DNA from: Tricholoma matsutake | Lineage: Eukaryota; Basidiomycota; Agaricomycetes; Agaricales; Tricholomataceae | NCBI GenBank assembly: GCA_026075535.2 | Contig: AP026544.2 | Location: 2,046,001 to 2,110,000, forward strand | DNA length: 64,000 nucleotides | Direction: 5' to 3' | Part shown: one piece after another, positions 6,408-58,538 of the stretch | Layout: every line of letters begins with the position of its first letter | How positions within the stretch are numbered: position 1 is the first letter of the stretch | Position numbers and translations under genes: made by a program | The notes under the pieces: model-generated | The model's input: only the letters and a program-made list of their open reading frames with translations | The model's database searches: none | What the model was told of the DNA's origin: nothing

Positions 6408-6480
6408 GGCCTGATAGCTCAGTGGTTAGAGCATCTGGTATATGTCTGAAAGGTCCTGGGTTCAATCCCCAGTCTGGTCA
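6408..6480 (+). tRNA. tRNA-like sequence, degenerate (pseudo-tRNA or SINE head)
   Basis: Exactly 73 nt fit the tRNA layout. The acceptor stem GGCCTGA pairs with TCTGGTC apart from one T-T mismatch and a G-T pair. The D arm is GCTC...GAGC, and the T arm CTGGG-TTCAATC-CCCAG is perfect. A-box and B-box like promoter words are present and TTTT follows at 6485-6488. The anticodon stem is poorly paired and position 33 is A instead of T, so a functional tRNA is doubtful. No CCA or intron is seen. Confidence 0.45.
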
Positions 6481-6894
6481 TCCTCTTTTCAGAGTTTAAT
6501 ACTTGACACTTCCATGTTCTATTTTACCTTTGAGTTAACTCTGGTTGCTTGTGTAGTTCCTATCTATGATAGTCATTCTGTCAAAGGGCAAAGACATTTA
6601 CATTCTTGGATGCAGATTTTGCCAAGCTTACCAGCTGGCCTCTGTATGAATAGGGCCTTCAAGACCTTCCTTATGATGCTGTTGTATCTGTCAGCTAGGG
6701 CATGGCATGGGTATGGGTAACACCATGTGTTTCTGGTCATGGGTATGCATGGGTATGGGATTGCCATACCTGGGCAACACCGTACCCTTTTCCCACAGTG
6801 TTACAGGTATGTGCCTATATGCTAGTACCTGGATTTTGGTCAGGTGAGTGAACATCTGACCTTGTTGATTACTCACTAATTTTAAACTATAGGA
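6481..6894. other. No gene; CATGGGTATGG-rich stretch
   Basis: About 6700-6790 carries repeated words of the type CATGGGTATGGGTAACACC. These recur at 4094-4112 and 7590-7700, suggesting debris or termini of a small repeat family. No coding evidence. Confidence 0.45.
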
Positions 6895-7560
6895 CAATCC
6901 AGGTTACCACCACCAGCACCCCAACCACCACTGTGAGCAACTGCTTGCAGAGTGGAAATGGGGAGTGAGGATGATAGCAAGCAACTACAATGGCTGCACC
7001 ATGTAGGATATGGGCCCAAATGATGTCTATTGTCATTTGGGCCCTATGTGTTTCTATATATCTTTCATTCTTGTTTTTTTCTAACTAACTAATGGTTTTA
7101 TTCAATTTTTAGGTTCTAATAGTGACATGACAATGAGACAACACCCTCAGCAGCAACCCCCCCCCACTGTTGCAAGCCTCTGCTCACAAGGTGGAGACCA
7201 ACAGGGATGGGACTGGCACAAACAAGAAATGACACACCACCCGCCCCCAGCCTCATGAGCAACTGCTCATGGGGCGGATAGTGGGTGGAATGATGATGAC
7301 GACCAGGAGGAGATGGCAACCCAACTGTTCTTGGTGACTACAGGCAGCACCCACCCCCTCTCTCACTGCAAATGCAAGCAGGGCGGTTTCTCATTCCATT
7401 TTCAGTGACTACAGGCATGTTCCCCCCCTCTCTTGCTGCAAACATGAGTGGGGGGGTTATACTCATTCTGTTCTTGATGACTACAGGCACCACCCCCTCT
7501 CCCTCACTCCAAACACCAGAGGGGGGTTTCACTTTCTATATATTAATTTAGTGTAATTAT
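6895..7560 (-). mobile_element. Fragment of the hairpin-rich TIR element (internal part, inverted)
   Basis: Contains, in reverse order relative to 30743-32747, the same internal modules. They are a GGGCCCAAATGA...TCATTTGGGCCC hairpin (7012-7044), a T-rich block with CTAACTAACTAA, a CATGAGCAACTGCTCATG palindrome (7255-7272), and three C-run/G-run hairpins with CTGCAAA-type loops (7330-7540). Neither TIR nor the tRNA-like modules are recognisable next to it, so this is an internal remnant. Confidence 0.6.
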
Positions 7561-7574
7561 ATTATTAAAATACA

Positions 7575-7711
7575 TATTAATGTTAATACCCATGAATAAC
7601 CATGGGTAACCCGCAGTAACACCATACCCCTACCTGTGTGGGTATGGTGTTCATGGGTACAGGTATGGGTATAAGAAAATATACCTGAGGGTTACCTGTG
7701 CTGTGCCCTAG
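7575..7711. repeat. Short CATGGGTAAC-type repeat patch
   Basis: Palindromic words around ACCATGGGTAACCC and GGTATGGTGTTCATGGGTAC, related to 4094-4112 and 6700-6790. It marks the point where the Helitron coding homology stops. Confidence 0.4.
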
Positions 7712-8857
7712 ACCCTTGGTGATGCACAGCTCAGTTGCAGAGTTATTTCTAATCATAATTGGCATGCCTATGCATATTGACAATCTTGGAGGAATACACT
7801 TAGTGTTAGCACATGCAGATTGTGACCAAAGTGCATTTTGGATCTTTTCAGGGATTTTCATATGTTTTATGACTCGTCTGTGTTTTCTATTGGCACAGTT
7901 TTGTTGTTCAATGCTGCCTGACTCATCTGATGATATGCAGTCTAAAGATACAAAGTGGTTCAATTCTTGTTTTGATTCAGCAGCAAATCTTAAGCTACCA
8001 AGGCGGCTGATCTCGTCCTTCTGACAGTTCAGTGCAGTTATAATGGAAACATTTCTAAACTCTGGTTGTGTAATGTGGACCTGCCCTTTCATTTTGCTAG
8101 ACACTAATGCATTCAGGAAAGCAATGTCTGCTTGTGTACAAGCCTTGTATCACATATTTGACAATGCAGTATGGAATTTAGTGTCTTCAGCAGACTCATA
8201 TTTTTGTCTCATGTTCTGTTGGAGGATGACAACAGTAGTTATCCGATCCCATAATGCTTCCCCCATTGCTGCCTCCTGGCTATGAGTTGTTTTTGCATTA
8301 ATTCCAACAGTATGACCATACAGTGAAGCATTTTCTCCTCTGATTGCTGGTGGAAGCTGTGCAAAGTCACCAGCAAAAATCATATTGATACCTCCAAATG
8401 GACTTTCAGTATTATTCATGATTTGGGCTAGTCTGGCACTTATCAAATACATGTCATGAAAACATAGCATAGACACCTTATCCATAAAAACATAGTCTAC
8501 ACCCTGTAGATGGGTTTTTACTTGGGCAATTTGAATAGCTGAACTTGCACAGTCATGACTAATTCCAAACATGTAATGGTAAGTTGATCCACCTAATAAA
8601 GAAGCTGCATTTCCTGTGGGAGCCACCACTACTAGTCTGTGTGATTCCTTCTTTTGCTTGAAAAATTCAGTGAGAGCCTTTATGACACATGTCTTTCCAG
8701 TGCCTGCCATTCCTGCAAGGTTCATTGTAAGCTGATCAGGGGTTTCACTGCAGCAATGATTTGCTATAATATGGTATGCACATTCCTGCTCTTCAAATTT
8801 CAAAGCCACCCTGTCAATTACATTTTGCCATTTAATAGAGGTGAATGTTTTTGTCAA
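7712..8857 (-). pseudogene. Helitron copy 1: PIF1-like helicase domain, truncated
   Basis: Two overlapping frames encode a PIF1-family SF1B helicase, the strand-unwinding half of a Helitron RepHel transposase. Visible motifs are Walker A GMAGTGKT, the motif PTGNAASLLGGSTYHYMFG, a Walker B region VFMDKVSML in which the usual DE reads DK, and GGINMIFAGDFAQLPP. A frame change near 8100-8150 joins to the downstream part (FAAESKQEL, then GMPIMIRNNSATELCITKG). Homology stops at about 7712, so motifs V-VI and the C-terminus are missing. The altered Walker B acid and the truncation argue that it is dead. Confidence 0.85.
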
Positions 8858-27429: not shown

Positions 27430-28160
27430 GCTTAGTGGGCAATGACACCCACCCCAGACTGCATTCCCCAACCCCCCTTCCCCCACATTTTGCGTGGGGA
27501 GGGGTCTTCATTATTTTTAATTCATATTATTTCTGCCCCCCCTTCCACTGAATCTGAGGGGTATATATATTGTAGTACTTATAAATCCCCCCCCTCACAC
27601 TGAACATGAGGGGTTTAGTTTTTTATGTACATAGTAGTAGTAATCCCCCCCCTCTTGCAAGATGCAAGAGGGGTTTTTTCTTATTATTATATTGTACCCA
27701 CTCCCTTGTGTAGAACACAAGGGATGTTGTTAATTAAAATTTTTTGATCTTAATTGTTTGAAAAAAGCCTCCTCAAAGAATATGAAAAGTTGAGTCATAA
27801 ATAAACCTTATATTGATACCTAATAATTCTCCTGTAGCTCAAGTGGCTGAGCATACTTGTTTGGTTTGTCATGTGATTCCTTATTGTGAGGTCTTGAGTT
27901 CAATTCCTGCACTACACAAATTTATTTTGTGGGTACTTTATGAAATTCACTAAGTCTGAAGGCCTTTGAACTCAGTATCTAATTGACTTATTGTTCAGTT
28001 GAAATGCACTCCACTCAGACTCCACTCAGACTCCAGTGGGGGATTGAACTCTACTTGACTTAGTGTAGTTCAATTGGACTCCACTCAGACTCCACTCAGA
28101 CTCCACTTGGACTCTGGTCAGTCCAGTTGGAGTCCACTAGGACAGGTGGGGGACTGTAAA
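27430..28160 (+). mobile_element. TIR element, end-1 fragment (copy A)
   Basis: From left to right: a hairpin array (27450-27725), a type-1 tRNA-like module (27829-27910), a subterminal zone dominated by ACTCAGACTCCACT-type words (28010-28135), and the terminus GGGGGACTGTAAA ending at 28160. The sequence resumes in the Helitron helicase frame directly after it (ACTGCTGCTTTGCTGGG encodes TAALLG). The other end and the internal palindromes are missing, so it is truncated on the left. Confidence 0.75.
27829..27910 (+). promoter_or_regulatory. tRNA-like module, type 1 (copy A)
   Basis: CTCCTGTAGCTCAAGTGGC includes an A-box like GTAGCTCAAGTGGCTGAGC, and GGTCTTGAGTTCAATTCC is B-box like. About 85% identical by eye to the module at 30971-31053. 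It faces outward toward the element terminus. Confidence 0.55.
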
Positions 28161-30742
28161 GTACTGCTGCTTTGCTGGGTGGATCAATTTATCATTATAT
28201 GTTTGGTATTAATGATTTAAAACAGGTTGTAAGGCTGTGAATTTGCAGCTTGCAGAAATGAAACAAAGATTGGAAGGAGTCAACTATATTTTTGTGGATG
28301 AGGTTTCAATGTTGTCCTGGAAAGATTTGTATAGAATCAATGAAAGGCTTGCAAGAGTAATGAACAACACTGATGAACCCTTTGGAGGCATGGCCATGAT
28401 TTTTGCAGGTGATTTTGCTCAGCTTCCTCATGCAATAGGTCAAGAGCATGCATCCAAATACAGCAGAACAGTGGGCTCAAATCCAAGGAGTCTGCATGAC
28501 CAAGAGGCTACAATTGGAAAGGCACTCTGGCATGAAATTACTACTGTTGTCATTCTACATGAAAATATGTGTCAGACAACCCAGACACCTGATGATGCAA
28601 GGCTGCATGACTTGGCAGTGTGAGGCCTTAAGCAACATGCAGTACAAGGCATGCACACCTGATGATATCACATTCTTGTGTTCCTGCATATCGAGTGATC
28701 TTGAAGGTTGATCTTCTGTAAACCAAAACAATTTTGCAATACATCTATCATAACCACACTTAATCTACCAAAAGATGTTATCAATGACCTTGCTTCACAA
28801 AGATTTGCAGCTGAAACAGGCCAAAAGTTAATGAATTTCTATTCTGAAGACACTATTAGCTCAAGTGATGATTGTGCCCTACCAACAACCAAAAAGAAGC
28901 TGGTTGCCTCATTGAAAAATAAGTGGATCCAAATACCCTCACTTTCAATAGCTCTGCAGCAGCCTGTTTGGGATTTGCTGCCATGTAGCAATACAAATAA
29001 TATTCCTGGAGAACTGTCACTTTGTCAGGGACTGCCTATAATCATTCACTTGAATAGTGCAACAGAATTATGGGTCAGGAAGCAACAGTATATGATTGGC
29101 AAGCAATGAAGGGTTCTAGAGGGCAGTGGATGCTTGACACTCTGTTTGTCAAGCTCACAAATTTCCCCCAGTCTGTACAACTGGAAAACTTGCCATTGAA
29201 TGTTGTACATTGACTAGAACAATCACTAACACCTGATGTCTTCTTCCTAGTGATGAAACCATCAACCACTGGCTGCACAGCAAGGTACTTCTGAGAAGGT
29301 ATGATGTCAGTATTCTGGAAGTACTCCTAATGCTACCACCATACTCACCAAGGGATATTTTGCCAGTATGCATACCAATCTAGAATACTACTTCAGTACC
29401 TTCAGTACTATCAAGGTATAGTACAATACTCTCAGAATACCTCTAGAGAAGTATGTTGACAATATTAGGAATACTGTCAGGATACTTTCACAGCACTTCT
29501 CATGCAGTATTGTGCCTTGCACCCAGTGAACATTTCCAGGAGTCAAGTTGAGGTACTCCCAAATTTTGCCATGACCAATTATACATTGCAAGGTAAACCA
29601 TGACCTTTCAATGTTGTAGATCTATCCAATGCAAGGAGCCACCAGTCATTCTACACAGCACTGTCTAGGAGTGTATCAGCAGCAGGCACAGTGATATTGC
29701 AGGGATTCAACACATATAAAATGACTGGGGTGCTTCCAGTGCACTGCAACAAGAGTTTAGAAATCAAGATGCTGGATGATATAACCACAATGGAAAGTTG
29801 CCAGTGTCTGTAGGAGGTGATCGTAGAAATGATCTTATATCATCCTTTTGACTGGTTAGGGGAGAGCAATATGTGCCTTCAAAGGTCCATTGAGCAATAT
29901 GCTGGAAGAGTAATGATCCCAGTACTGAGATCAATTGGAGAATTGTAGCAAGCCAAAGCCCACCATATGCCCCAAGAACCAAAAAGTGTCTTGGTTTGTA
30001 CCTGCAAGAGATATGCAGATTAATGCACCAGAACTTATAAAGAAATGAAAGTTTAGTGGAGATCCAGATATGAATATTAATGAGACTGCAGCAAAGAGAA
30101 ATAAAACAGAGATAAATGGAACTACTGAAGATGAGCCTAATGTTGCTTGTCCATCAGCAAGAGCACATTTTGATTGCTGACTTTCGGACTTTTTGAGCTT
30201 GTGGAGGATTCACTGTGCATGAAAGAAGCCACAAACTGGCAAGGTTGCAAGGTAGGAAATGTACTGTTTCAGGTCCACTTCCGATACAAAAAAACTTGGA
30301 GCTCCAGGATTTGAATTTGAGTTGCTGTAATGATGCAAAATTTGCCAACTTGTGGCTTTCTAGACATGGCTTGTGAGCTTATGAAATCTCATCAAAATTG
30401 CACAATAAAAGCTTGGACAAGCTCACTGTCAAAACACTGATGTCCACAAGGGTCACAGTGGAGCAATAATAGCTGGGTGTGTGATGCTGTGATGTCTGTT
30501 CTGTATAATATTTGGTTAGATACACAACATTGCTAACTACTCAGTTCAGAGATGTCAATCATCATCAGTATTTAGGACAGATTGCAAACAACTTCTCACA
30601 AACTCAACCACATGCAGGCACATACAGTCTTGAAGATGTGCATGATTATATATGGCACTGTTTGCAGAGGGTTGATCCTGTAAACTTTGCTTGGGGCCAC
30701 TACACAAGTACTCAAAACATACTAGATGCCTTCTTACTGAGC
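28161..30742 (+). pseudogene. Helitron copy 3: helicase and part of C-terminal domain
   Basis: Begins mid-motif (ALLGGSIYHYMFGIND), then MNLQLAEMKQRLEGVNYIF, VDEVSMLSWKDLY (Walker B intact) and GGMAMIFAGDFAQLPHAIG. After frameshifts come FAAETGQKLMNFY, GLPIIIHLNSATELW, TNYTLQGKP and HQSFYTALSRSVSAAGTVIL (motif VI). The C-terminal domain resumes at about 30512 with QPHAGTYSLEDVHDY and GHYTSTQNILDAFLLS. The frame is cut at codon level by the TIR element at 30743. Walker A is missing because of the insertion or deletion on the left. Confidence 0.85.
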
Positions 30743-30970
30743 TTTACACTGCCCCACATAGTCCTGGTAGTCCTGCCAGGAAGACCAGGAATCCTCCAGG
30801 AATCCAGTAGGACTCACCAGGACTCACCAGGAATCCAGTGGGACTTACCAGGATTTCTGGTATGTTACCAAACATCCAACCATAATGGAAAGTCAATTTG
30901 ATATCTTATGAGTTCAAGTGCCTCAACTTCAGAAATTTCACAATGTGCCCACAAAACAGATTTGTGCAAA

Positions 30971-31053
30971 GCAGGAATTGAACTCAAGACCTCATGATGA
31001 GGAATCACATGACAAACCAGACAAGTGTGCTCAACCAGTTGAGCCACAGGAGA
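30971..31053 (-). promoter_or_regulatory. tRNA-like module, type 1 (copy BC)
   Basis: Minus strand: CTCCTGTGGCTCAACTGG, GGTTGAGCACACTTG and the B-box like GGTCTTGAGTTCAATTCC. It is oriented outward toward the left TIR. It is shared with 27829-27910 and 50608-50688. Confidence 0.55.
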
Positions 31054-31145
31054 ATTATTTGTTATCCATATAAAGTTTATTTATGACTCAAACTCAAACT
31101 CAAGCATGTAATCTCTCTTGAAGTCACTATTAAGATCAAATAATT

Positions 31146-31420
31146 TTAATCAACTACACCCCTTGTGTCTAACGCAAGGGATACAATACAATTAACTACA
31201 TAAAAAAAAGCCCTCCTATGCACCTCGTGCAAGGGAGAGCCCTAAAAATATTTACAGATAAAACTAAATCCCCTTGCGTTCGATGCAAGGGGAGGGCAAC
31301 AATTATGAATAAATAAAGAAAATCCCCTCACTGTTGTAAAATGTGGGTAAGGGGGAGGGCATTAATATGAATGAAAAAAAAATGAAAAAAACCCTCCCCA
31401 TACAAAATGCAGGGGAGGGA
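31146..31420. repeat. Array of five C/G-run hairpins
   Basis: Hairpins at about 55-60-bp intervals with stems CCCTTGTGT/ACGCAAGGG, CCCTCCTATGCAC/GTGCAAGGGAG and CCCCTTGCGT/ATGCAAGGGG, then two decayed ones (CCCCTCACTG... and CCCTCCCCATAC...). Three-base loops (CTA, CTC, TCG) in the intact ones. A-rich spacers separate them. Confidence 0.75.
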
Positions 31421-31540
31421 GCAGCCTGGTGGTGTCTCATTGTGGTGTGGGCACATGGGTCCCACTCCCCATCCTCATCCCTGTCCCTGTCCCTGTCCAC
31501 ATCTCCCCATTGTCCCCATCCCAATAGTTCCCCATTTCTG

Positions 31541-31790
31541 CCCCATGAGCAGTTGCCCATGGTGGTGGATTGGGGTGCTGCTGTGGTGGTGGCTGTCATT
31601 TCCATTCCACCTGCAATCTACCCCATGAGCAGTGGCTCATGGGGCTGGAGGTGGGTGGTGTGTTGTTGGCCCCATGATTGGTGGCCATGCTTCGCATTCT
31701 GGGGGTTCTGGTGCTGGTAGGCAGTGGCATCATCATTGTCATTGACTGCACACACTCACAATCCACCCTATGAGCAGAGGCCCACAGGTG
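31541..31790. repeat. Three GAGCAG palindromes
   Basis: CATGAGCAGTTGCCCATG, CATGAGCAGTGGCTCATG and TATGAGCAGAGGCCCACA at about 31544, 31624 and 31770. The GAGCA...GCTC core is kept while outer stem bases vary between copies of the element. Confidence 0.7.
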
Positions 31791-31839
31791 TGGGGTGGGT
31801 GTGTTGGGTTGCCTCATGTCCGGCCATCATTACCAGTAG

Positions 31840-32188
31840 AGTAGAACCTATAAAACAAAAGATACAAGTTAGTTTATAAAACAAAAAGTAAACAAAAAAA
31901 AACTTATGTAGGGCCCATCCAGTTGGCTTGTTTGCAGGTGGTTGTGTCGTTACCAGTAGATTATAACCTAGAAAACTAAAGAAACAGGTTAGTTAGTTTA
32001 TAAAAGCAAAAAGCAAACAAAAAAAAAACATATGTAGGGCCCATCCAGTCAGCTCGTTTGTGGGTGGTGGTGATGCCCGAGTGGGCATGGGAGTGGTGGC
32101 AGTGGGTGTTAGAACCTTATAACCTAAAAAATAACAAAAAAAAACTGATGTAGGGCCCAAACGATGCAGCAGGTTGCATTGTTTGGGC
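31840..32188. repeat. Three A-rich direct repeats, the last ending in a GGCCCA hairpin
   Basis: Three blocks share GTAGA(T)TA-type starts, AACCTA, AAACAAAAA runs and TTATGTAGGGCCCA or TGATGTAGGGCCCA. The third continues into a hairpin GGCCCAAACGATGCA/TGCATTGTTTGGGCC (32154-32188). Equivalent blocks lie at 51733-51836 and 19020-19088. Confidence 0.7.
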
Positions 32189-32423
32189 CTGCATCAGCTC
32201 ATTTGAAGGTGGTGGTGATGGTGGAGTGGGCATGGGAACAGTGGTGGTGGGTGTCCACACAGTGGTGGTGGTGGTGGTAGAACAGAGAGGAGGGAGGTGG
32301 CAGCATTGACAAGAGTGGTGGTGATGGTTGATGAGCAGGCAGTGTTGATGATGTGGCTGTGTGCTTTGTCATGCATGGCTGCCCCAATGGTACCTAGAGC
32401 AGTTAGTGGACACACCTTGTAAG

Positions 32424-32500
32424 TCTATGTGGTGTAGTGGTTATATTGGCTGTGCTGAAATGTTGTTGTCTGATGCCTAGGGTTCAATTCTGTCTTGTGT
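32424..32500 (+). promoter_or_regulatory. tRNA-like module, type 2 (copy BC)
   Basis: ATGTGGTGTAGTGGTTATAT (A-box like) and TAGGGTTCAATTC (B-box like). Similar to 58053-58132 and more distantly to 52081-52162, and different from the type-1 modules. It faces the right TIR. Confidence 0.5.
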
Positions 32501-32751
32501 CATTTACTTTATTACTTAGTAGTAAGGACTCCTGTATCAATCTTACTGGATTCCTGGTCCATCCTCCTGGATTCTTCATAGTCCAAGTCATGGGGAATTC
32601 CTAGAATAGTACCAGGAAGAGCCCAATTTACCAGAATTATACCAGGAATCCACCAGAATCCTACTGGAAGAGAAACTGCCAGGAATAAACCATTTGGTGG
32701 ACAATGGCTGAAGCAGGGACTACCAGGAATACATGGGGCAGTGTAAAGAGC

Positions 32752-33380
32752 TCTCTTCTTAGCTACAAGTTGCCCTACCACATCATTGTCAATGTCCTGT
32801 CCAAACAAGCACCCACTAATGATAAAAGACTTGCCTCAAGCTGTCACATTGTGCTCTTGCATTATTGCCCATCCATACAAACATTTGTCAATGACCAATT
32901 CATTGAATGTGCATCATGCTGCCAAAGTTGTCAGTCATATCTGATAAGAAAACATGTTTCTGAACATGCTCCAGCAATTATCACTTTTGATATGTCCCAG
33001 CACAGAACATTTTTTCTGCCATCTTTAGTTTTGAGTACAGTTGATGGGCAATGCACAACTTACAAGCTTAGAGGGGTGATGTATCATCTGCAAGATCATT
33101 TCACATCATGCTTCATCACAGAAACAGGATCTGTGTGGTATCATGATGGTTTGGGCACAGAACACCAGATGGAGCATGAAGGAGATGTAGCACAACCAAT
33201 TTTGGGACATGTCAATTGCATGTCACAACATGTGCCATTCACATGATACCCTCTCAGGAGAGCTCAGATCTGCCATGCAGACAGCAACAGCCCTCTCAAA
33301 CCAGTGGGATTTAGTAGATTTTGTCAAGCTGTTGGTCAGTCTGGTCTGTTTCTGTTTTGTCTTTATGATACTGTTATGCA
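32752..33380 (+). pseudogene. Helitron copy 3: C-terminal protease-like domain, downstream half
   Basis: Continues the domain interrupted at 30742: NDKRLASSCHIVLLHYCPS, then two Cys pairs in ECASCCQSCQSYL, and finally YKLRGVMYHLQDHFTSCFI followed by GSVWYHDG. The latter resembles the histidine box of C19-type ubiquitin hydrolases (Y-L-...-H-F-...-W-Y-x-D). With the NSCxYD-type box seen N-terminally in copy 2 this suggests a cysteine-protease fold at the Helitron C-terminus. The frame shifts at about 33246. Confidence 0.6.
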
Positions 33381-38236: not shown

Positions 38237-39572
38237 TCATTCAATGTCAGTGTCCATCATCTCATCAGGGCTAGACAACCTAGTCCCATTGACATAACTG
38301 AAGTCTGCAGGAGTGTAGATTGGCAGAGTGAAGTCCATAGGAGGGTAGGATGGCAAAGTGATATGAGAAGGAGTGGGGTTCTCTATCTGTGATGTGGTAA
38401 TGGAATCTTCAGAATTGGCCTCAGCATCAGATTCACCATTAAATCCAGTCTCTAAGGATGACAGAAAATCATCTGCAGCATCAGATGCAGTGGGGAAAGC
38501 AGCCACATCTGTTGAAGTTGGATTGGCAGCTGGAGATGAGGAGGTAGAATCGGAAAGATAAAAGGGAGCAGCATCAAAGCCAGTCAGGGATCCTGTAGGG
38601 GAAGACAATGACTGATCATTGTCACCCTGTCATGCCATGAGTGCCTGAAAGGCAGTGGGCTGATCAGCATCACTTGCTGCATCATCTTGGCCTTGCCAAA
38701 CCATGGCAGTGGGCTGGCTGGCTTCTGCATCGCACAAGGCATCGGGAACATAAGTGGGAGTGGGAGTGGGAGGAAAAGTGGGGCCAGGAGTGGGGCTGGG
38801 AGGCAATGAATCATCTGCTCCATCGCCTGATACCATGGGTGGTCAACCATAGGCATTGGATGTAACTGTGGAGACCGTTGGTGTGCTCGACCACAGCCTT
38901 TCTTCTCTTTGCACCATCAGGCAGAGACAACCGATACCTGGAATGCTGTTGTTTGCCCTTGGTCTTTGTCTTCTCATTAGCACCCAAAACATCACTTTCT
39001 GTGATGTCAACACCCCAGGTCCACTTGTAGGAGCTGGAGAGAAGGGACTTCAGGTGCTCAAGTTCTGCCTGTGCATTTGCTGCCACCAGTTCTGATTTTC
39101 TTCTTACTGCTGTTTGCCTTGAAGGTCGCCCAGAATGTTGAGGGGGTTTTGATCCTGTTGCCAAAGCCTGTGGTGCAGCCTGGAGCTCCATCAGCAGGGC
39201 AAGCTCATGAACTCAGTGTAACGCTGCTGGTTTCCTGACATTGGCATTCAATGCAGCATCTGCTGATGATTTGCAGCCATCTATAAACTGAAGCGTATGG
39301 CGTGTTTCATGCAGCATATCATTCAAGAGACCCTGGAAGTTGATGCAGGATTGGAAATTGGCAGCAGGAGCAGCAACAGCTTGGGAAGCAGGAGCCAGTG
39401 AGTCAGACTCAGTGAAGTACTGCTTATGGTGATCAAGGCAGTGATCCAGGGTGTCAATGCCCATAATGCTGTCTGCTGCCAGTTCGCTATGATGTCTCCA
39501 GCAGTCCAGGGCATATGAGGGCACTAGACTGCTTGTAAGTTCGGGGGGGACACCATCATCCAACATGGCCAA
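38237..39572 (-). pseudogene. Second ORF of the KDZ element, left copy
   Basis: One frame runs 39572-38811 with a single TGA (at about 39212): WRHHSELAADSIMGIDTLD, NFQGLLNDMLHETRHTLQF, then a basic stretch KPPQHSGRPSRQTAVRRKSE and LSSSYKWTWGVDITESD. A one-base shift near 38836 continues as a Pro/Thr-rich, acidic tail (GADDSLPPSPTPGPTFPPTP ... DEMMDTDIE) with one more stop. It lies directly downstream of the KDZ transposase. The role is unknown, perhaps DNA-binding or regulatory. Its first third is duplicated at 47883-48311. Confidence 0.55.
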
Positions 39573-42124
39573 GAGGGATGGATGGAATCTAGTGGTAGGT
39601 GGTCGAAGTTTACCTCAGCAAGACTGTCAGCCAAGGGACGAAGCAGGATCAGCACCTCGAACACCAGGCAAATTGATGTGGCAAAGCCAATTTGAGACAT
39701 GATGCACAGCTGCAATATTTTTGAGTGATGAATCTCTTACTTGATTCATAAAAGATCCTGCTTACAAGCTCACAATATAGAACCTTTTGCATCCATTTTT
39801 GCTTTAAGACATTTGCCCCTTGCATGTGCAACAGGACTTGATGGAAACAGGACTCTGCATACCAAATGATCTGCTGTGTACACATGTGGAGTGGACCTTT
39901 TGGCCCCAATTGTAAAGAAAAAGGGTTGAAGACTGAGAGACATTTATTTGACATGTTGATTGTGGTTAGAGATAAAGATGATTGAGTTTATGTAGTAGAG
40001 GGTCATAGAGGGGGAGATGTAATCGATGTTTGCTGATATAAATGCGGTGTCAGCCCTGAATGCTAATTCATGCCATAAAGCCCGCTGGTGGTTAGCATAG
40101 GCTAGGGGGCCAGGCAAGGTATTCTCTGAGTGCAAGGCTGACTGCCACCATTCACTGTGATAAATGAAATACCACACAGTCCACTGCATTTCATATGTGA
40201 CCAGCAGAAATTCCTCCTTCCATCTATGTCTCTGAGCCTGCAAGCGAAGCCAATGTACTCGCCTGACTATGCAAGAAGTTCAGTGCAATGCAAACAAATA
40301 GCCACAAAATAGATGTACATTCCCAGAATTGATCGGCGGGATTGGGAGCGGGGCCGTTAAAGGAAGCAGGAGTGGGAATGGGAGTGGGAGCGGGTATGGC
40401 AGTGGGTATGGCAGTGGCAGTGGCATTGGGGAAGGCAGTAACACCAGTCCAAATGTGAGAATTATGCCAAATCCAGGACAGATGAATATTAGTGGAGCCA
40501 GGCATATTTGGGTTCAGAATAGCTGTGCTAGCATTGAGGTCATCCTTTTTTAACCACTGAAACATATTTAAGGTGTCAGTGTCACAATCCAGTGCCACCA
40601 ATCTGCTTCAGCAATGGTTATACATTTGGGAATGCAGGGCAATTTTGTTAACCAACTCCTGGACAGTGGCTTGTGCTCATGTGCAAACTACCTTTCTTGG
40701 GGCCGCTCAAATAATGTGTGAATATTGAAACAACTTGTCCACCATGAGCTCCCACAGCCAATGCAGCAGTCGGCTTGCTTGATTCTTCCTGAGCTGAATC
40801 TCCACCTCTGCCAGATGGCCATTAAATGGGAGGTATACTTGTTGCTCCTCAACTGGAATAGCATTTCTGTCAGCTGGAAGATGTGAAGGCCCCAATGCTG
40901 TAAGTGTGTCTTCATCTGAAGGGTCTAAGTCATCAGAGTTGTCAACATTGTAATGGCTGATTTGTGATGGAGCAATGTCATGGTCAGCAACATTGGCAGC
41001 ATTTTGTAAATCTGTTAAGGTTTCCATGTGGGATTCGAGAGCTTCCCTTTCCATTTCAACAGATTGCATGTCAGAAACATTTGGTGATGTACCAAGTTGG
41101 CGGACTTTGTCTCATAATTCAATACTGGTGTATGCCAACAATGAGTTGTGATATATGAGTATGTTAGGCAGTACTTACTGCATTTGTTGAACATGATTGC
41201 AAAATCAATCCAATCCTCAACCGCAGATTGAACCAGTGCAAGTGCCGCTCCTGTTGCCATTGCCAATGCCAATGCTGTTCCCACTCCCACTCCTGATCCC
41301 AGAGTGGCATAGATATCCATGTCCTTAACATCTGTCAGCCTGAGCAATTCTGCTGCAGTCACTTCATCCTCCCATCTTTGGACCACCTGTTGACCAAATG
41401 CTGCTGTAAGGTCAGCATGGTGCTTGCCGAGTTGCATGGAGATCTCAAGGGCTTCTTGAGATTTTGCACACAGCATAGTGGTCATGCCAAGCATTTTCTT
41501 GTGATTTGAGTCTGTAGCATGATCATCGAGCATTTCTGCCCAATGTGGCAAGGTCGCTGTCCTGACTGTTGGGGAAATGGAATTTAGTGATGACCACAGG
41601 GACTCTAATATTTCTCCTGCTACAACAATGCCAGAGCCTGGAATGAAAGATGGAGCATAACAAAAAAAGCATTTGTCCTTGTGACCATGTACATGCATAA
41701 GCCCAATGGCCTGGTCAATGGTGAGGTCAGCTGGAAGATGTGGACCAATGTGCTCCAGAAGGTAGATGATGTACTGGCAGACAATGTCGTAAATCAGCAT
41801 TACTCCCTGTTGAGGGTCAACCCTGGTAGTCTTCAGTGCTTGAAGGAAAGCAAAGTCAATGTTCTTTTGCTGTTCTCCCTGGAACAAGTCTACCAATGCA
41901 TTGGGTGCATAACATCCATGTCGCGCACATGCAATGGCAGCTACTCTAGTCCTATCACATGCCTTCGATGCCAGAAAAGCATTCACAATGGCTAGATATT
42001 CATTTTCACAAGGTGCCTTCTGCAAAAGGGGCATGGATCAGATCAGATCAGATCAGGAGCGGGGGTGGGAACAGCCACAGCCACAGCCACAGGAACAGCA
42101 GTGGCAATGGCAGTGGCAGCGGCT
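39144..42124 (-). repeat. Inverted duplication IR1, left arm
   Basis: Mirror image of 45331-48311 about an axis at 43727.5, with no length difference. Translations of every frame compared are identical across the arms, so identity is near 100%. The inner edge falls in the KDZ intron; beyond 42124 the two sides diverge. Confidence 0.95.
39944..42034 (-). pseudogene. KDZ transposase, catalytic and C-terminal part, left copy
   Basis: Frame 42034-41015 contains the Kyakuja-Dileera-Zisupton core: LIYDIVCQYIIYLLEHIG (Asp of the first acidic motif, residue 83), HVHGHKDKCFF (HxxxC, 118-122) and GEILESLWSSLNSISP (Glu 141/144). Downstream frames 41069-40707 and 40601-39944 supply the C-terminal region, with a frameshift or intron between them. 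The N-terminal CxC2 half is absent from this arm, so this copy cannot encode a full transposase. The arm duplicates 45435-47511 base for base, including its defects. Confidence 0.8.
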
Positions 42125-45314: not shown

Positions 45315-45435
45315 GTAAGTACACTTCCCTAGCTGCTGCCACTGCCATTGCCACTGCTGTTCCTGTGGCTGTGGCTGTGGCTGTTCCCACCCCCGCTCCT
45401 GATCTGATCTGATCTGATCCATGCCCCTTTTGCAG

Positions 45436-47511
45436 AAGGCACCTTGTGAAAATGAATATCTAGCCATTGTGAATGCTTTTCTGGCATCGAAGGCATGTGA
45501 TAGGACTAGAGTAGCTGCCATTGCATGTGCGCGACATGGATGTTATGCACCCAATGCATTGGTAGACTTGTTCCAGGGAGAACAGCAAAAGAACATTGAC
45601 TTTGCTTTCCTTCAAGCACTGAAGACTACCAGGGTTGACCCTCAACAGGGAGTAATGCTGATTTACGACATTGTCTGCCAGTACATCATCTACCTTCTGG
45701 AGCACATTGGTCCACATCTTCCAGCTGACCTCACCATTGACCAGGCCATTGGGCTTATGCATGTACATGGTCACAAGGACAAATGCTTTTTTTGTTATGC
45801 TCCATCTTTCATTCCAGGCTCTGGCATTGTTGTAGCAGGAGAAATATTAGAGTCCCTGTGGTCATCACTAAATTCCATTTCCCCAACAGTCAGGACAGCG
45901 ACCTTGCCACATTGGGCAGAAATGCTCGATGATCATGCTACAGACTCAAATCACAAGAAAATGCTTGGCATGACCACTATGCTGTGTGCAAAATCTCAAG
46001 AAGCCCTTGAGATCTCCATGCAACTCGGCAAGCACCATGCTGACCTTACAGCAGCATTTGGTCAACAGGTGGTCCAAAGATGGGAGGATGAAGTGACTGC
46101 AGCAGAATTGCTCAGGCTGACAGATGTTAAGGACATGGATATCTATGCCACTCTGGGATCAGGAGTGGGAGTGGGAACAGCATTGGCATTGGCAATGGCA
46201 ACAGGAGCGGCACTTGCACTGGTTCAATCTGCGGTTGAGGATTGGATTGATTTTGCAATCATGTTCAACAAATGCAGTAAGTACTGCCTAACATACTCAT
46301 ATATCACAACTCATTGTTGGCATACACCAGTATTGAATTATGAGACAAAGTCCGCCAACTTGGTACATCACCAAATGTTTCTGACATGCAATCTGTTGAA
46401 ATGGAAAGGGAAGCTCTCGAATCCCACATGGAAACCTTAACAGATTTACAAAATGCTGCCAATGTTGCTGACCATGACATTGCTCCATCACAAATCAGCC
46501 ATTACAATGTTGACAACTCTGATGACTTAGACCCTTCAGATGAAGACACACTTACAGCATTGGGGCCTTCACATCTTCCAGCTGACAGAAATGCTATTCC
46601 AGTTGAGGAGCAACAAGTATACCTCCCATTTAATGGCCATCTGGCAGAGGTGGAGATTCAGCTCAGGAAGAATCAAGCAAGCCGACTGCTGCATTGGCTG
46701 TGGGAGCTCATGGTGGACAAGTTGTTTCAATATTCACACATTATTTGAGCGGCCCCAAGAAAGGTAGTTTGCACATGAGCACAAGCCACTGTCCAGGAGT
46801 TGGTTAACAAAATTGCCCTGCATTCCCAAATGTATAACCATTGCTGAAGCAGATTGGTGGCACTGGATTGTGACACTGACACCTTAAATATGTTTCAGTG
46901 GTTAAAAAAGGATGACCTCAATGCTAGCACAGCTATTCTGAACCCAAATATGCCTGGCTCCACTAATATTCATCTGTCCTGGATTTGGCATAATTCTCAC
47001 ATTTGGACTGGTGTTACTGCCTTCCCCAATGCCACTGCCACTGCCATACCCACTGCCATACCCGCTCCCACTCCCATTCCCACTCCTGCTTCCTTTAACG
47101 GCCCCGCTCCCAATCCCGCCGATCAATTCTGGGAATGTACATCTATTTTGTGGCTATTTGTTTGCATTGCACTGAACTTCTTGCATAGTCAGGCGAGTAC
47201 ATTGGCTTCGCTTGCAGGCTCAGAGACATAGATGGAAGGAGGAATTTCTGCTGGTCACATATGAAATGCAGTGGACTGTGTGGTATTTCATTTATCACAG
47301 TGAATGGTGGCAGTCAGCCTTGCACTCAGAGAATACCTTGCCTGGCCCCCTAGCCTATGCTAACCACCAGCGGGCTTTATGGCATGAATTAGCATTCAGG
47401 GCTGACACCGCATTTATATCAGCAAACATCGATTACATCTCCCCCTCTATGACCCTCTACTACATAAACTCAATCATCTTTATCTCTAACCACAATCAAC
47501 ATGTCAAATAA
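45436..47511 (+). pseudogene. KDZ transposase, catalytic and C-terminal part, right copy
   Basis: Follows the acceptor CCCCTTTTGCAG (45424-45435) with KAPCENEYLAIVNAFLASKA and the same catalytic motifs as the left arm (DIVCQY, HxxxC, GEILESLW). It continues at 46386-46748 (acidic linker, RKNQASRLLHWLWELMVDKL) and 46854-47511 (RHRWKEEFLLVTYEMQWTVW). In-frame stops between these blocks and the upstream TGA make the gene non-functional as it stands. A Gly/Val/Ala run in the ORF is encoded by GGAGTGGGAGTGGGA DNA, as in nearby microsatellites. Unlike the left copy it is preceded by the N-terminal half. Confidence 0.8.
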
Positions 47512-47754
47512 ATGTCTCTCAGTCTTCAACCCTTTTTCTTTACAATTGGGGCCAAAAGGTCCACTCCACATGTGTACACAGCAGATCATTTGGTATGCAG
47601 AGTCCTGTTTCCATCAAGTCCTGTTGCACATGCAAGGGGCAAATGTCTTAAAGCAAAAATGGATGCAAAAGGTTCTATATTGTGAGCTTGTAAGCAGGAT
47701 CTTTTATGAATCAAGTAAGAGATTCATCACTCAAAAATATTGCAGCTGTGCATC

Positions 47755-48311
47755 ATGTCTCAAATTGGCTTTGCCACATCAATTTGCCTGGTGTTCGAGG
47801 TGCTGATCCTGCTTCGTCCCTTGGCTGACAGTCTTGCTGAGGTAAACTTCGACCACCTACCACTAGATTCCATCCATCCCTCTTGGCCATGTTGGATGAT
47901 GGTGTCCCCCCCGAACTTACAAGCAGTCTAGTGCCCTCATATGCCCTGGACTGCTGGAGACATCATAGCGAACTGGCAGCAGACAGCATTATGGGCATTG
48001 ACACCCTGGATCACTGCCTTGATCACCATAAGCAGTACTTCACTGAGTCTGACTCACTGGCTCCTGCTTCCCAAGCTGTTGCTGCTCCTGCTGCCAATTT
48101 CCAATCCTGCATCAACTTCCAGGGTCTCTTGAATGATATGCTGCATGAAACACGCCATACGCTTCAGTTTATAGATGGCTGCAAATCATCAGCAGATGCT
48201 GCATTGAATGCCAATGTCAGGAAACCAGCAGCGTTACACTGAGTTCATGAGCTTGCCCTGCTGATGGAGCTCCAGGCTGCACCACAGGCTTTGGCAACAG
48301 GATCAAAACCC
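47755..48311 (+). pseudogene. Second ORF of the KDZ element, right copy, truncated
   Basis: Same sequence as 39144-39700: FEVLILLRPLADSLAEV, then after a shift WRHHSELAADSIMGIDTLD to the TGA at 48241. It is cut at 48311 by the Gypsy LTR terminus, so the basic and acidic C-terminal parts present on the left are missing here. Confidence 0.6.
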
Positions 48312-50188: not shown

Positions 50189-50337
50189 GGGATTCAATCA
50201 AATAATGTTGGCAGAAGACCCCTTGGCTTATGGGCTTGTCCATATGCTCAAATATTCTAGTAAATTTAGGAAATTTATCTGGTATGCTATAGCTATTTTA
50301 TTGAAAAACATCGGCTGAGCCAGTGGCAACACTAGGT
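50189..50337 (+). pseudogene. Gag N-terminal fragment
   Basis: Encodes AEDPLAYGLVHMLKYSSKFR and KFIWYAIAILLKNIG, the same peptide as the minus-strand piece at 49365-49470 (about 85% similar). The two copies form an inverted pair around the LTR, i.e. two Gypsy remnants lie head to head. Confidence 0.55.
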
Positions 50338-50607
50338 AAACTTTGCACTCCCCCCCGTATTCCTATCGGAGTCCTAGGAGGTTTTCCGATAAGAGTCCAA
50401 TCAGAGTCCTACTAGTCTGACACTAGTCCTAGGAGTCCAATAGGAATCCGATCGGAATGTATCTTGATGACCATGTACTTTTATTTCCAAGAAATTCCTA
50501 GTAAATTCCGAGTAAAGTCCTATGCAATTCCAACAGGTAGTAGTCGGAATACCATACCATTTCGGAAGACTTAACTTGATGAAAGTGCTTACAAAATAAA
50601 TGGGCAG

Positions 50608-50688
50608 AGCAGGAATGAACTCTAGACCTTGGGATATAAGTGACATGACTACCAAACAAGTGCTCAACCAGTTGAGCCACAGGAGCAT
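50608..50688 (-). promoter_or_regulatory. tRNA-like module, type 1 (copy DE)
   Basis: Minus strand GCTCCTGTGGCTCAACTGG and GGTCTAGAGTTCATTCC; same type as the BC and A modules, facing outward. Confidence 0.5.
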
Positions 50689-50773
50689 TAATAAATATGT
50701 AATATAAAGTCCATTTAAAGCACTTAGGATTAGTTCACTTATTTTTAACCTCTCTCACAAGAGCTCGAAAAAA

Positions 50774-50930
50774 AATTGTTGAGCCCTCGCATCTTTGCGA
50801 GGGAGTAGATAAATATAGATTTAAAAAAAAACCCCATGCAAACACGAGGGGGAGAATTAATTATACTATTTAATTATACTATTTTAAATTCTACAAAAAA
50901 AACCCACCCCCCTGTGAAACGGGGGGGAGG
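50774..50930. repeat. Three C/G-run hairpins (copy DE)
   Basis: CCCTCGCA-TCT-TTGCGAGGG (perfect), a decayed CCCCATGCAAACACGAGGGG, and CCCCCCTGT-GAA-ACGGGGGG. Stems differ from those in the BC copy while pairing is kept. Confidence 0.7.
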
Positions 50931-51072
50931 GGGTGGTGGTGCATTGTGTTGGCTGTCTCATCAGCCCTGTCCCGTCGTTTCCCCTCCCTCTTGTCTCTGT
51001 CGTGTCTCGCCTCCCTCACCTTGCCTCCCCCGTGGCTTCCCTCCCCTCCCTCATCGTTCCACCCACCGTCCA

Positions 51073-51505
51073 CCCCACGAGCAGTTGCTCGCGAGGCTGG
51101 TGGTGGGTGGTGCGTCGTATGTTGGTGGGGGCATTTGTCCATCGTCCCCTCCCTCCCTCCCCCTCCCCTTGAACACCCTACAAGCAGATGCTCGTAGGCG
51201 TGCATGGGGTGGGTGCCGCCGTTGTCTCCCCTTCTGGTCGTCGTCTCCATTTCCCCTTGTTGTTTCGTCACCCTTGTCGTTCATCCCCCTCGTCGTCTGC
51301 ACCCACAAACCACCCTACAGGCAGCTGCTCATAGGCATGTTGTTTGGTGCCATCGTCGTCCCTCCATGCCGTTCCCGTGTTCTCGCACCCCATATACACC
51401 CCGCGAGCAGTCGCTCACGGCGGTGATGGGGGGTGCTGGATGTCATTGGTGTTGTGGGGGGTCCATGCACTCACGATTCACCCTACGAGCAGCAGCTTGT
51501 AGGCA
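51073..51505. repeat. Five GAGCAG palindromes (copy DE)
   Basis: CACGAGCAGTTGCTCGCG (51076), CTACAAGCAGATGCTCGTAG (51178), CTACAGGCAGCTGCTCATAG (51314), CGCGAGCAGTCGCTCACG (51402) and CTACGAGCAGCAGCTTGTAG (51483). They are spaced about 80-135 bp. Outer stem bases covary between units. Confidence 0.8.
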
Positions 51506-51732
51506 TGGGGTGGGTGCGTTGTCAGTTCGTCAGTGACATGGCTCGAGGGGAGGGGTCAGGTGGTGCTTACCGGGCAGGTATTCCTCTTCTGGGGTCTCCT
51601 AGTGTTGCTCCTCATGCTCCTGACCATGATCAATACCCTCACATCCCATTTTGATGGGGAGGAGGCGGGTTGCCAGGGGCATCGTTGGGTGTGGGTTTGG
51701 CTCGCGTCAGTCCATCATTACTCATGTAGATT

Positions 51733-51836
51733 AGAACCTAGAAACAAAACAAATGAATTAGTTAGTTTACAAAAGTAAAAAATGAATGAAAAAAAAAAAC
51801 TTACTATGGCCCAAATGACAATTGCATCATTTGGGC
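51733..51836. repeat. A-rich block with GGCCCA hairpin (copy DE)
   Basis: GATTAGAACCTAGAAAC, TTAGTTAGTTTACAAAAG and a run of A lead into GGCCCAAATGACA/TGCATCATTTGGGC (51808-51836). It is the equivalent of 31840-32188, present once here and three times there. Confidence 0.7.
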
Positions 51837-52080
51837 GTTGTTCGGCGTCGAAACCAGTCATTTCCGGTCTTGGGGGCTCGTCTAGAGATGGGGGTGAAGT
51901 GGTAGTGGTGGGAGTTGCTGGGTTGAGGTGGTTGAGGTGGGGGGATGGAGGTGTTGTGCTTATCGTCGTTGGTGGTGGTGGTGGGAGTTGATGAGCTGGC
52001 AGGTGTGATGACGTGGCTATGTGCTTTGTCATCACACCCGTGGGAATGGTATGTAGTGTAGTATGATCACTTACCTGTAA

Positions 52081-52162
52081 TGACTGTTTAGCCTAATGGT
52101 ATTGTAGTCAGTTTACACTTACATAATCTTCTGTAGTCAAGTGTTCAATTCTCGTCTGTGCG
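52081..52162 (+). promoter_or_regulatory. tRNA-like module, type 2 (copy DE)
   Basis: TTTAGCCTAATGGTATTGTA (A-box region) and AAGTGTTCAATTCTC (B-box like). Weaker than the others but in the same position and orientation as 32424-32500. Confidence 0.4.
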
Positions 52163-52474
52163 TTTAATTTTTCATACTATATTACTAAGCAAGGCTGCTT
52201 TCATTCCTATTGGAATCCTATGTTGTCTGATGTCTTAGCATAACTTTGGACTAGTCCTATGTGATTTATATGATCAGAAATTCCTAGGAAATTCTGATAG
52301 TCCAATCGGACTCTGATTGGACTACATCGGACTGGACTAGGACTAAATGTGCCATTTCATGTCAATTTGGCTGGTGAAAATGACATCGGAATATGGTTGG
52401 ATTCCAATCGGAGTCCGATCGGAATCATCGGAATCATCAGATTCCTATAGGAATATGGGGGGGAGTGTAAAGAC

Positions 52475-54430
52475 CTCGTTGGTGTAATGATAGGAGTTGA
52501 CAATAAATCTGTTTGTTTTAGCCCATGATTCCCAGCTACCATCAGCAATACTATGGCTCAGCACCACACAGGCTTTGTCAATGCATATATAATTAGGGCG
52601 TGATTCTTCTGTTGGATATACTGTCTCCAAAAAGTGCATAATATTAGTGGGTGATTCTGATTTCACAAATTTTGCCCAAGCAATGACAACTCCACATGGT
52701 GCACATATTGTTTCAACACAGTAAAAGTGGCGTGGCATGAAGTAGGTTGCATACTGCACATCAGGTGCTGGTTGGTCATCAGGTTGTCCAATTGAGTCTT
52801 GAGCAGGTTGCCATGGTAGATTTTCACCAGGCCTATGCAGCATCCTTCAAAAGCCAGACAGCTGTTTGCGAGAATGGTTACTGAGATATCTCTTCCACAT
52901 TTCCTCATGATCTTGACATGCATTTGTCCCATGAACTTTCTGGTTTTCACATCCTTGAACATGGCATGTGGCCCCATGTTGTTGTTCATGCAGAGCACAA
53001 AAACCCCCACCTCTTGCATTTGCCAACTCTGCAGTGCAGTCATCATATGCACAATGCTAATTATCAAAAAAATATTATAAGTGATCAATTTGTATTTGCC
53101 AGTAGATGTTCCATACCGGGGGTCCAAAGACAATTCCATCAACAACAGCCATTGTCACATCTCGAGCAGTTGAATCCTCCACTTCCATTCTTTGTCCAGC
53201 TGATGAACCCTGTTGCAAATTATCACCTGCACTCTGTGATACAGGTATATTATTGCTTTCAAGAGTTGCAGTTGGATCACTGATGGCAGTGAGATCAGAT
53301 GTTTGTCTGTATGGATGAGTGCAATCTGAGCAGTGGTGGTCTTTGGCTGCCAGAATAATTCCATCTTGTCCCAGAGATAAGAATGCCTCCCTGGTCACTT
53401 CATCAATTGCTAAGCCATCACGAAGTGTGAGATCAGTTCCATATGGAGAAGCAACTGTCCAAATAGACTCCTGAACAAATGCTTGCCACACCTGGTGGCA
53501 TGTCACCCTATTGAAATTGACAGTTTGATGCTTTTCAAAGCTGTTATTCCAATATTCTGCATATGCTGAAGCTGATGCATGGAAATTGTAGATGCCATTC
53601 AAGACACCATGAGAAAATGCCTGGTCCACCCATACACTCTGACTTATCTTGAGGTATCAGGCAGAATTCAGATAAACCCTGCTATATTGATGTGCCTCCC
53701 CAACTTCAACTGCCCGTTCATGGTCTGCTGAATATTTGGTCTTGCAGGTTAAGCATTCCCCAGTCAAAACAAAAACATTTTCATGTATTACTGAATTCTT
53801 GATCAGTGTGACTTGAGGAATATCCTGTGTTTGGATGGCCTGGTGTAGTGCCCTTGAATTGCAATTTGCTGTTTCACATTCCATTGAGTTGGGACAAAGA
53901 ACATGTACTGGCTGGATCAATTTATGGGATATGGGTTGTAGTTGCTTTTGCAGATGTCCATGTGCATTGTATGGATGCAAATTCAAAAGTTTTGCAGCTG
54001 CATCAAGCTTGAGGCTGAGTGCAGTAATTTCTTGTTCAGCATCCATGTTTTTGTCAACCTCCTTCATCTTCAAAGGCCTTTGCTGATTGTTATCCATATT
54101 TTCTTTGATTGCCCATGCAAGACCCTTGATCCAACCTGATGCCATGACACGATTTTCTCCTTCACATTGAATGTATTGCTGCCAGGCATGGAGATTCAAC
54201 AACTCAGGATTTTCAGTCAATGAAAACAATAGGACAAGCACTGCTGATAGTGATGTTTTAGAGCTGAAGTGTTGGCTGATAAATTGACTGAAGACTTTGA
54301 ATGTGATATTTGGGAAAGGATCCTCTCCTGCTGGCATTGCAGAGGCAATAGGAATAAATGCTGACAAAACCACCCAAGTCCAGATGTGCCAGGGTACAAG
54401 ATTTATGGCCAATACAAGGATTTTGGAAAC
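52475..54430 (-). pseudogene. KDZ-type transposase with CxC5 and CxC6 clusters, truncated
   Basis: Frame 54412-53657 has the CxC5-like cluster CPNSMECETANCNSRAL and GECLTCKTKYSADH. Frame 53629-53075 has the CxC6-like HHCSDCTHPYRQTSD. After an intron a further cluster CAYDDCTAELANARGGG, FCALHEQQHGATCHVQGCE, ACQDHEEMW leads to a TGA (52847-52849, Arg expected) and HRPGENLPWQP. It then continues with SRPNYICIDKACVVL, GSWESWAKTNRFIVNSYHYT, a catalytic-core stretch of this KDZ branch. The gene is cut at HYTNE by TIR element DE, losing its C-terminus. It is a different KDZ lineage from the CxC2 gene at 43.7-47.5 kb. Confidence 0.8.
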
Positions 54431-58045: not shown

Positions 58046-58052
58046 GTTTGAC

Positions 58053-58404
58053 AATGGCTCTGTGGTGTAGTGGTTAATTGCTGCTATTTATGCTTGGTGA
58101 TAAGGCTTGGAGTTCAATTCTCCTTTATTACATAATTTTTTCGTAGCCTCTGCTATTTATCCACGGACTCAACTCAGACGACTCGGACATGTATCCATCT
58201 GAGTCCGAGTAAATTGATGTTGCTTGGACAAAGTCTGTGTGCACTCCAAGTAAAGGTGCAAAAACAGCTCGGACTCCACGAAAGTCCATGCAGAGTCCAA
58301 GCAACTGCTATACAGGACATTTGAGCCAAATGAGTAAATGCCAGTCCGTGCGGAGTCCACCAAATTCTGCATGGACTGGCTCAGAATACGTGGGGCACAG
58401 TAAA
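58053..58404 (+). mobile_element. TIR element, end-2 fragment (copy F)
   Basis: Type-2 tRNA-like module (GTGGTGTAGTGGTTAATT, TTGGAGTTCAATTC; 58053-58132), then a zone of CGGACTC / GAGTCCGTG words, ending GAATACGTGGGGCACAGTAAA at 58404. The subterminal vocabulary differs from copies A, BC and DE. No matching left end is found; the right flank is GACC. Confidence 0.65.
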
Positions 58405-58538
58405 GACCTCTCCCTTGCCACCTCCTCCAGTTCCCTCACCTCCCATTCCATCTGCTCTTTCATCTCCTGCTCCCTCTGTTTGTACTGAGCCTTCATTGCG
58501 GCCAATTTCAGTTGAGCAGAGCCTGCTGGGGGGGACAT
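58405..58538 (-). CDS. N-terminal coiled-coil fragment, interrupted by element F
   Basis: ATG 58538 opens MSPPAGSAQLKLAAMKAQYK and KQREQEMKEQMEWEVRELEE, a charged heptad-like helix, then VARERS. After that the frame enters the TIR terminus. It is the first exon part of an unknown protein; see 57570-58045 for a possible continuation. Confidence 0.45.

Follow-up and report, generated by a model that had tools for sequence, protein, structure and literature searches.

What are the two hairpin-packed stretches, each closed by inverted repeats and each holding a pair of tRNA-like pieces, that lie within a single 64,000-nucleotide portion of the genome of the fungus Tricholoma matsutake? That portion, called the window here, is C7:2046001-2110000 of a genome searched as 161,040,721 bases in 13 contigs; PMC10211490 describes a telomere-to-telomere assembly of the species of 161.0 Mb in 13 sequences. 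The best explanation overall, and one that as a whole we consider probable, is that the two stretches, copies A and B, are members of dispersed families of non-autonomous, terminal inverted repeat (TIR) DNA transposons in the T. matsutake genome, equipped with Pol III units and an RNA cassette. The mobile unit itself is of a known kind, a non-autonomous class II element; the unusual part is its cargo. Copy A and its borders comprise the following features, in window positions:

30729..30736, unstranded: left target duplication CCTTCTTA, matching 32754-32761 at 7/8 positions; uninterrupted paralogs of the joined flanks
30737..32753, plus strand: copy A, whole element of 2,017 bp, ends CTGAGC...GAGCTC, from genomic copies
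30737..30773, plus strand: left TIR, outer CTGAGC, then TTTACACTGCCCC (inverted repeat 30742-30773 / 32717-32748, 91%)
30774..30860, unstranded, approximate limits: left subterminal word zone (inverted word repeats with 32541-32733)
30942..31065, minus strand: tRNA-like type 1, toward the left end (profile match 125 bits; its cluster has the A box, the B box and TTTT)
31159..31420, minus strand: C/G-run hairpin array, T runs after hairpins on the minus strand (sequence, strand bias)
31540..31805, unstranded: three GAGCAG palindromes (self-comparison and palindrome criterion)
31827..32189, minus strand: A-rich blocks with GGCCCA hairpins (repeat 31827-31946 / 31947-32072)
32421..32526, plus strand: tRNA-like type 2, toward the right end (profile match 49 bits)
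32540..32716, unstranded, approximate limits: right subterminal word zone (inverted word repeats)
32717..32753, minus strand: right TIR, ending in GGGGCAGTGTAAA and then GAGCTC (inverted repeat with the left TIR)
32754..32761, unstranded: right target duplication TCTTCTTA (7/8 match to the left duplication)

Copy B is laid out in the same manner:

50336..52477, plus strand: copy B, whole element of 2,142 bp, without target duplication at its site (genomic copies, flanks)
50336..50373, plus strand: left TIR, GTAAAC, then TTTGCACTCCCC (inverted repeat 50341-50373 / 52440-52472, 88%)
50582..50698, minus strand: tRNA-like type 1, toward the left end (profile match 92 bits)
50783..50930, minus strand, approximate limits: hairpin array, T runs after hairpins on the minus strand (sequence, strand bias)
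51056..51512, unstranded: GAGCAG palindromes, four by the criterion used
51738..51804, minus strand: intron-like block GTAAGT ... CTAAC ... TTTCTAG
51808..51836, minus strand: exon-like GGCCCA hairpin, immediately upstream of the intron-like block
52077..52194, plus strand: tRNA-like type 2, toward the right end, TTTTT stop (profile search and signal scan)
52440..52477, minus strand: right TIR, ending in GGGGAGTGTAAA and then GACCTC (inverted repeat with the left TIR)

Both copies and their TIRs had been picked out in a preliminary description made from the window alone, although comparison of genomic copies moves the true ends 6 bp further out. Copy A thus runs from CTGAGC and TTTACACT to AGTGTAAA and GAGCTC, and copy B from GTAAAC and TTTGCACT to AGTGTAAA and GACCTC. 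The left outer 6 bp read CTGAAC in family A (CTGAGC in the window copy), GTAAAC in B, CAGTAC in D and E and CAGTAA in F, while the right outer 6 bp, reverse-complemented, read GAGCTC in A, GAGGTC in B and D, and AAGGTC in E and F; TTTACACT-type sequence adjoins them at every listed family end, so that the two ends are unlike in their outer 6 bp and have an inner core in common. The dispersed, hairpin-rich, non-autonomous TIR family with tRNA-like modules that had been proposed is borne out by many full-length copies and by the abundance of the TIR core TTTACACTSCCCC, found 2,876 times across the 161 Mb of the genome whereas a reversed control pattern is found 102 times. Three end queries gave 2,120, 809 and 963 first-look candidates, of which 40 were scored for each, and a 20-mer of the type-1 module, GTGGCTCAANTGGTTGAGCA, occurs 709 times against 0 for its control. 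Most copies examined span roughly 1.8-3.3 kb without nested insertions. The suggested lack of coding capacity holds in the elements examined: no protein of their own was found, and each protein family found inside them is part of a nested transposon. Families A and B are young, lying 3.1% and 2.8% respectively from their majority sequences (first 650 bp, 17 copies each). The commonest changes from those sequences are C>T and G>A (161/335 listed changes in A, 208/305 in B), the pattern that cytosine methylation or a RIP-like process would leave.

The record of insertion is written in the flanks. Abutting flanks agree at 7/8 positions or better in 10/17 A copies and 14/20 B copies, against 2/272 and 1/380 of the mismatched flank pairs that served as the respective controls; the duplication is exact over 8 bp in 4 A copies and 12 B copies, with 9 bp repeated in three more of the latter. 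Exact 8-bp duplications also flank the D element in L057 (CATATGAC), the F element in L055 (GTTCTCGG), the outer element at C12:6478724-6483874 (CTATAAAC) and a short relative, element G (CCTACCTT). The target duplication is 8 bp. Window copy A has it in the imperfect form CCTTCTTA/TCTTCTTA; the site of copy B has no duplication (1/8 positions agree), and none was seen at the pair L054/L061, whose flanks are common to both members. The 4-bp duplication first suggested is an error of boundary: GAGC is element sequence, part of the right end, and it is 8 bp that the flanks repeat. When flanks were joined, minus one duplication, and an uninterrupted paralog was sought within the examined loci, such an empty site was found for 9/37 copies, the clearest being a B element inserted in an A element (L020): 22 loci were matched, and 20 alignments among them run through uninterrupted. 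For window copy A, a genome-wide search with the joined flanks returned 25 matches besides its own flanks, 22 of which cross the join by at least 30 bases on each side; the best, C9:4484125-4484382, is 81% identical over positions 1-257 of 260. These paralogous empty sites confirm insertion, that of window copy A included, and aligning copies with their flanks, as had been recommended, supports a mobile family. Because TIRs, a duplication of fixed length and empty sites together define a class II element, the opening verdict that the architecture matches no element class was too strong.

Within these ends the interior keeps a fixed order. In 45/45 end-to-end copies all palindromes sit between a minus-strand type 1 ahead of them and a plus-strand type 2 behind; this set includes nested pairs (L020, L056, L058) and the duplicate pair L054/L061, similarity of the left end guided the choice of its A and B loci, and L055 has no palindrome meeting the criterion. 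Intron-like units lie on the minus strand between the tRNA-like modules in 40/45 copies, the other five (L021, L042, L048, window copy A and the C12 element) having none by the pattern used. The internal order claimed at the outset therefore stands for the outer modules, but not throughout the middle, where palindromes and intron-like units are interleaved in some A copies. Nor do the modules wander through the genome in unrelated orders, the finding that would have told against a family: on C1:1-5.0 Mb, 21/29 type-1 units have an exact TIR core no more than 2.5 kb away (2.6 on average and 8 at most for random positions), although the cassette does occur by itself in element G.

The tRNA-like modules were traced by profile searches, which found 60 type-1 and 44 type-2 instances at 30 bits or more in the sequence examined, each type forming 8 clusters at 85% identity. 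The A- and B-box consensus of Pol III promoters and the T run at which the polymerase stops are established knowledge, and it is at these signals that the modules are best kept. Across 7/8 type-1 and 8/8 type-2 cluster representatives (one short row was dropped), pairwise identity between clusters of type 2 is 0.79 in A/B-box columns against 0.45 in the other columns, and conservation over 11-column windows peaks at the boxes; for type 1 the figures are 0.78 and 0.67, with the TTTT region highest. Among the 14/16 representatives with a recognised B box, TTTT starts 7-19 nt past that box in 14/14 (shuffles: mean 3.2, max 8), while AAAA occurs in 0/14 of the same 45-nt stretches; TTTT is absent within 45 nt of the B box in the type-2 module of window copy A. 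In A box, B box and TTTT the families thus have the signals of a pair of Pol III genes directed outward and ending short of the word zones, and both units are putatively transcribed by Pol III in that direction. ARAGORN reported no tRNA in 48 loci, neither module is a tRNA by ARAGORN or by Rfam gathering score, and Rfam gave only weak matches, below curated cut-offs, on the two elements searched; the modules are therefore read as promoter-bearing tRNA-like units. If the signals are used, every insertion would deliver a pair of Pol III promoters belonging to the transposon itself, making it a source of new small RNAs and a natural experiment on whether chromatin is opened or insulated by mobile Pol III units.

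Between the modules lies the second part of the cargo. Read on the minus strand, the A-rich blocks resemble short fungal introns, with AG/GTAAGT, a T-rich tract, CTAAC and TTTTAG, and the intron-like block follows directly after a hairpin ending in TTTGGGCC. A search that kept only hairpins followed by T-rich sequence found 102 such units, 92 of them distinct, in 12 clusters at 82%; a single cluster holds 78/92 distinct units, and its representative has AT in place of GT. The full intron pattern is present in 8/12 cluster representatives (shuffle mean 0.15, max 3) and GTRNGY within 8 nt in 7/12 (shuffle mean 0.10, max 2), while the 92 units divide by splice start into 49 of GT type, 32 of AT type and 11 of neither. 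The A-rich blocks of window copy A are relatives of these units in which the splice signals are degenerate, and no unit there meets the pattern. Hairpins followed by a T run favour the minus strand over the plus by 44:6 in A, 28:0 in B and 10:2 in the others; a generic terminator scan of the two window copies gave 2 and 4 sites against 2.1 expected, no clear excess. As for the palindromes, 166/427 GCAGNNGC cores have at least 5/7 Watson-Crick arm pairs, against 27/343 control cores, self-complementary cores being counted on both strands, and because decay of CG could give the same pair types we do not claim covariation for them. Together, the intron signals and T-run hairpins point to a putative minus-strand RNA, which would be spliced.

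Other parts of the window hold pieces of the same system. Three of them are the following:

27430..28166, minus strand: left-half fragment of a D-type element, with its end at 28166, type 1 at 27817-27939 and a hairpin array
58052..58410, plus strand: right-end fragment of another family, with type 2 at 58052-58154, words and its end at 58410
6915..7545, minus strand: related cassette with palindromes, hairpin, intron-like block and hairpin array, without TTTACACT-type ends

The first two had been noted as end fragments at 27430-28160 and 58053-58404; they are indeed one-ended, but their limits shift slightly and they come from related families. The three sites listed as internal debris, at 6.9-7.5, 18.9-19.6 and 60.6-61.2 kb, do contain cassette modules, yet none has a TTTACACT-type end or a convincing pair of ends with an 8-bp duplication. 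At 6690-7720 the cassette is bordered on both sides by ACCCATGGGTA-type words and CTAGGGCA...-like sequence, as if it sat in an element with other ends; an exact 8-bp duplication was looked for there and not found. About 0.5 kb outside this cassette is an ordinary-looking tRNA-Ile (anticodon TAT, 6408-6480); ARAGORN and Rfam find no other tRNA in the window. At 61687-63999 is an open frame of 771 codons that has Helitron and PIF1 helicase domains, and a cassette-like palindrome lies at 60876-60934, some 0.8 kb past the C-terminal end of that frame. The window also contains inverted arms (39144-42124 / 45331-48311) of 2,981 bp and 99.97% identity; a KDZ transposase frame lies in each (41018-42037 minus strand and 45418-46437 plus strand), and the arms are either a recent palindromic KDZ arrangement or a matter of assembly. 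Elsewhere, element G (C1:14912265-14913603), set in sequence that reads like a LINE RNase H frame, has the hairpin cassette, and no tRNA-like module was seen in it. Cassette and modules can therefore separate, and not every relative needs the modules; of the two, the cassette may be the more ancient.

An autonomous relative with the same TIRs, which had been suggested as something to look for, was sought without success: no coding relative with the same ends was found in the sequence examined. Myb-like and DDE_Tnp_4 frames do lie inside two relatives, L054 and C12:6478724-6483874, as would suit non-autonomous PIF/Harbinger elements, a reading we regard as very improbable. The C12 block is bounded by a TIR of its own, GAGGGTGGTCGGTAAC, and by a TAA duplication, with L057 as the exact empty site; the L054 block has the matching right TIR and lacks the left; L063 is a Harbinger standing by itself, with ends of that kind and TAA. 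The block thus belongs to a nested element, and PIF/Harbinger was rejected as the autonomous partner; moreover, duplications of 0, 2 or 3 bp are published for PHIS elements, against 8 bp here. In both relatives the nested block lies immediately before tRNA-like type 1, a spot for which nested Harbingers possibly share a preference. L059/L060 and L046 were dismissed as coding elements, as they hold insertions of Ty3-type or other gag-bearing retroelements, and Merlin was dismissed on 0 matches in the genome to the IS1595-type transposase PF12762. The 8-bp duplication makes hAT or Zisupton/Dileera the first candidates, PMC12730594 giving 8-bp duplications for hAT, Zisupton and Dileera alike, and the elements have duplications of that length. 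Mobilisation by a transposase of one of these types would refine the best explanation, and we judge its chances to be even. Among the matches listed, KDZ, hAT, Plavaka and MULE domains are present in the genome, KDZ and hAT commonly; against this, none of the 24 listed KDZ/Plavaka/hAT/MULE matches on C1:1-5.0 Mb, over which the list of TIR cores is complete, could be placed inside an element, and one KDZ match (L052) lies inward of a TIR core by 7.5 kb, with no second end seen. Two listed Plavaka matches near C1 TIR cores were also set aside: one is outside by the orientation of the core at 4917987, and the other, C1:4597560, lies inward of core 4600446 but beyond the type-1 unit at 4598607, which by coordinates puts it outside the element if the left end is in its usual place. 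Retrotransposition of composite SINEs, finally, would account for tRNA-like heads whose A/B boxes and T stops resemble those of tRNA-derived SINEs, but is barely credible for units with TIRs and a duplication fixed at 8 bp, in which the Pol III stops come ahead of the ends, within the element.

What the cargo does is a separate matter from how it moves. On the explanation that we prefer, a transposase supplied in trans would recognise the ends and insert the element. The tRNA-like module near each end, a complete Pol III unit by its signals, would read outward and stop before the word zone, and bound TFIIIC/Pol III may hold the two ends open, or shield them from silencing, for the transposase to find; such opening or shielding is the role we favour for the module pair, albeit tentatively. 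The middle would be a minus-strand RNA cassette of one to several units, each an exon-like hairpin with a short intron, followed by GAGCAG hairpins and then by T-run hairpins. A bolder and doubtful possibility is a lineage with a non-coding gene set of its own, in which the two outward Pol III units would act at both ends as portable chromatin boundaries or anti-silencing sites alongside a spliced, hairpin-rich regulatory RNA, served by a transposase not yet linked to such ends; were that so, some of the quarter of the matsutake genome that is unclassified may be accounted for. It is likewise unlikely, though worth weighing, that all of this is passenger cargo: an ancestral non-autonomous element would have picked up two pieces, tRNA-derived or SINE-like, along with part of a spliced gene, none with a function for the element, their signals kept by descent. 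Element G manages without tRNA-like modules, the families are young, at about 3% from majority sequence, and many units have lost the GT, all of which would suit mere inheritance; yet the surroundings of type 2 have fallen to that 0.45 between clusters while boxes and TTTT were kept, and intron signals persist in the eight clusters of twelve noted above.

Set beside known systems, the matsutake elements are familiar at their edges and strange within. With tRNA-derived SINEs, whose heads carry A and B boxes and T stops, they share an internal Pol III promoter with both boxes and a T-run stop; they differ in having two opposite units within a TIR element, an 8-bp duplication and no signs of retrotransposition, whereas SINEs are marked by absent TIRs and duplications of variable length. 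With MITEs and other non-autonomous TIR elements of the 8-bp superfamilies (hAT, Zisupton/Dileera) they share TIRs, subterminal repeats, an 8-bp duplication, high copy number and a lack of protein, but depart from them in a length of about 1.8-3.3 kb, two outward Pol III-like units, an intron-like hairpin cassette and a fixed order. The overlap with PIF/Harbinger (PHIS) is one of nesting: a Harbinger inside two relatives, its 3-bp TAA duplication and different TIRs marking it as a separate element. In the open-access literature searched, we found no description of a cargo in which a pair of outward Pol III units and an intron-like hairpin cassette keep a fixed order, although an entry in Repbase or a subscription paper may exist. 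The megB1 repeat, also non-coding and from the same genus, is dimeric, Alu-like and mainly in the rDNA spacer according to PMC10627285. According to PMC10211490, unclassified repeats make up 25.4% of the T. matsutake genome in 111,844 copies, against 13 SINE copies, and it is part of this unclassified fraction that the elements described here would classify.
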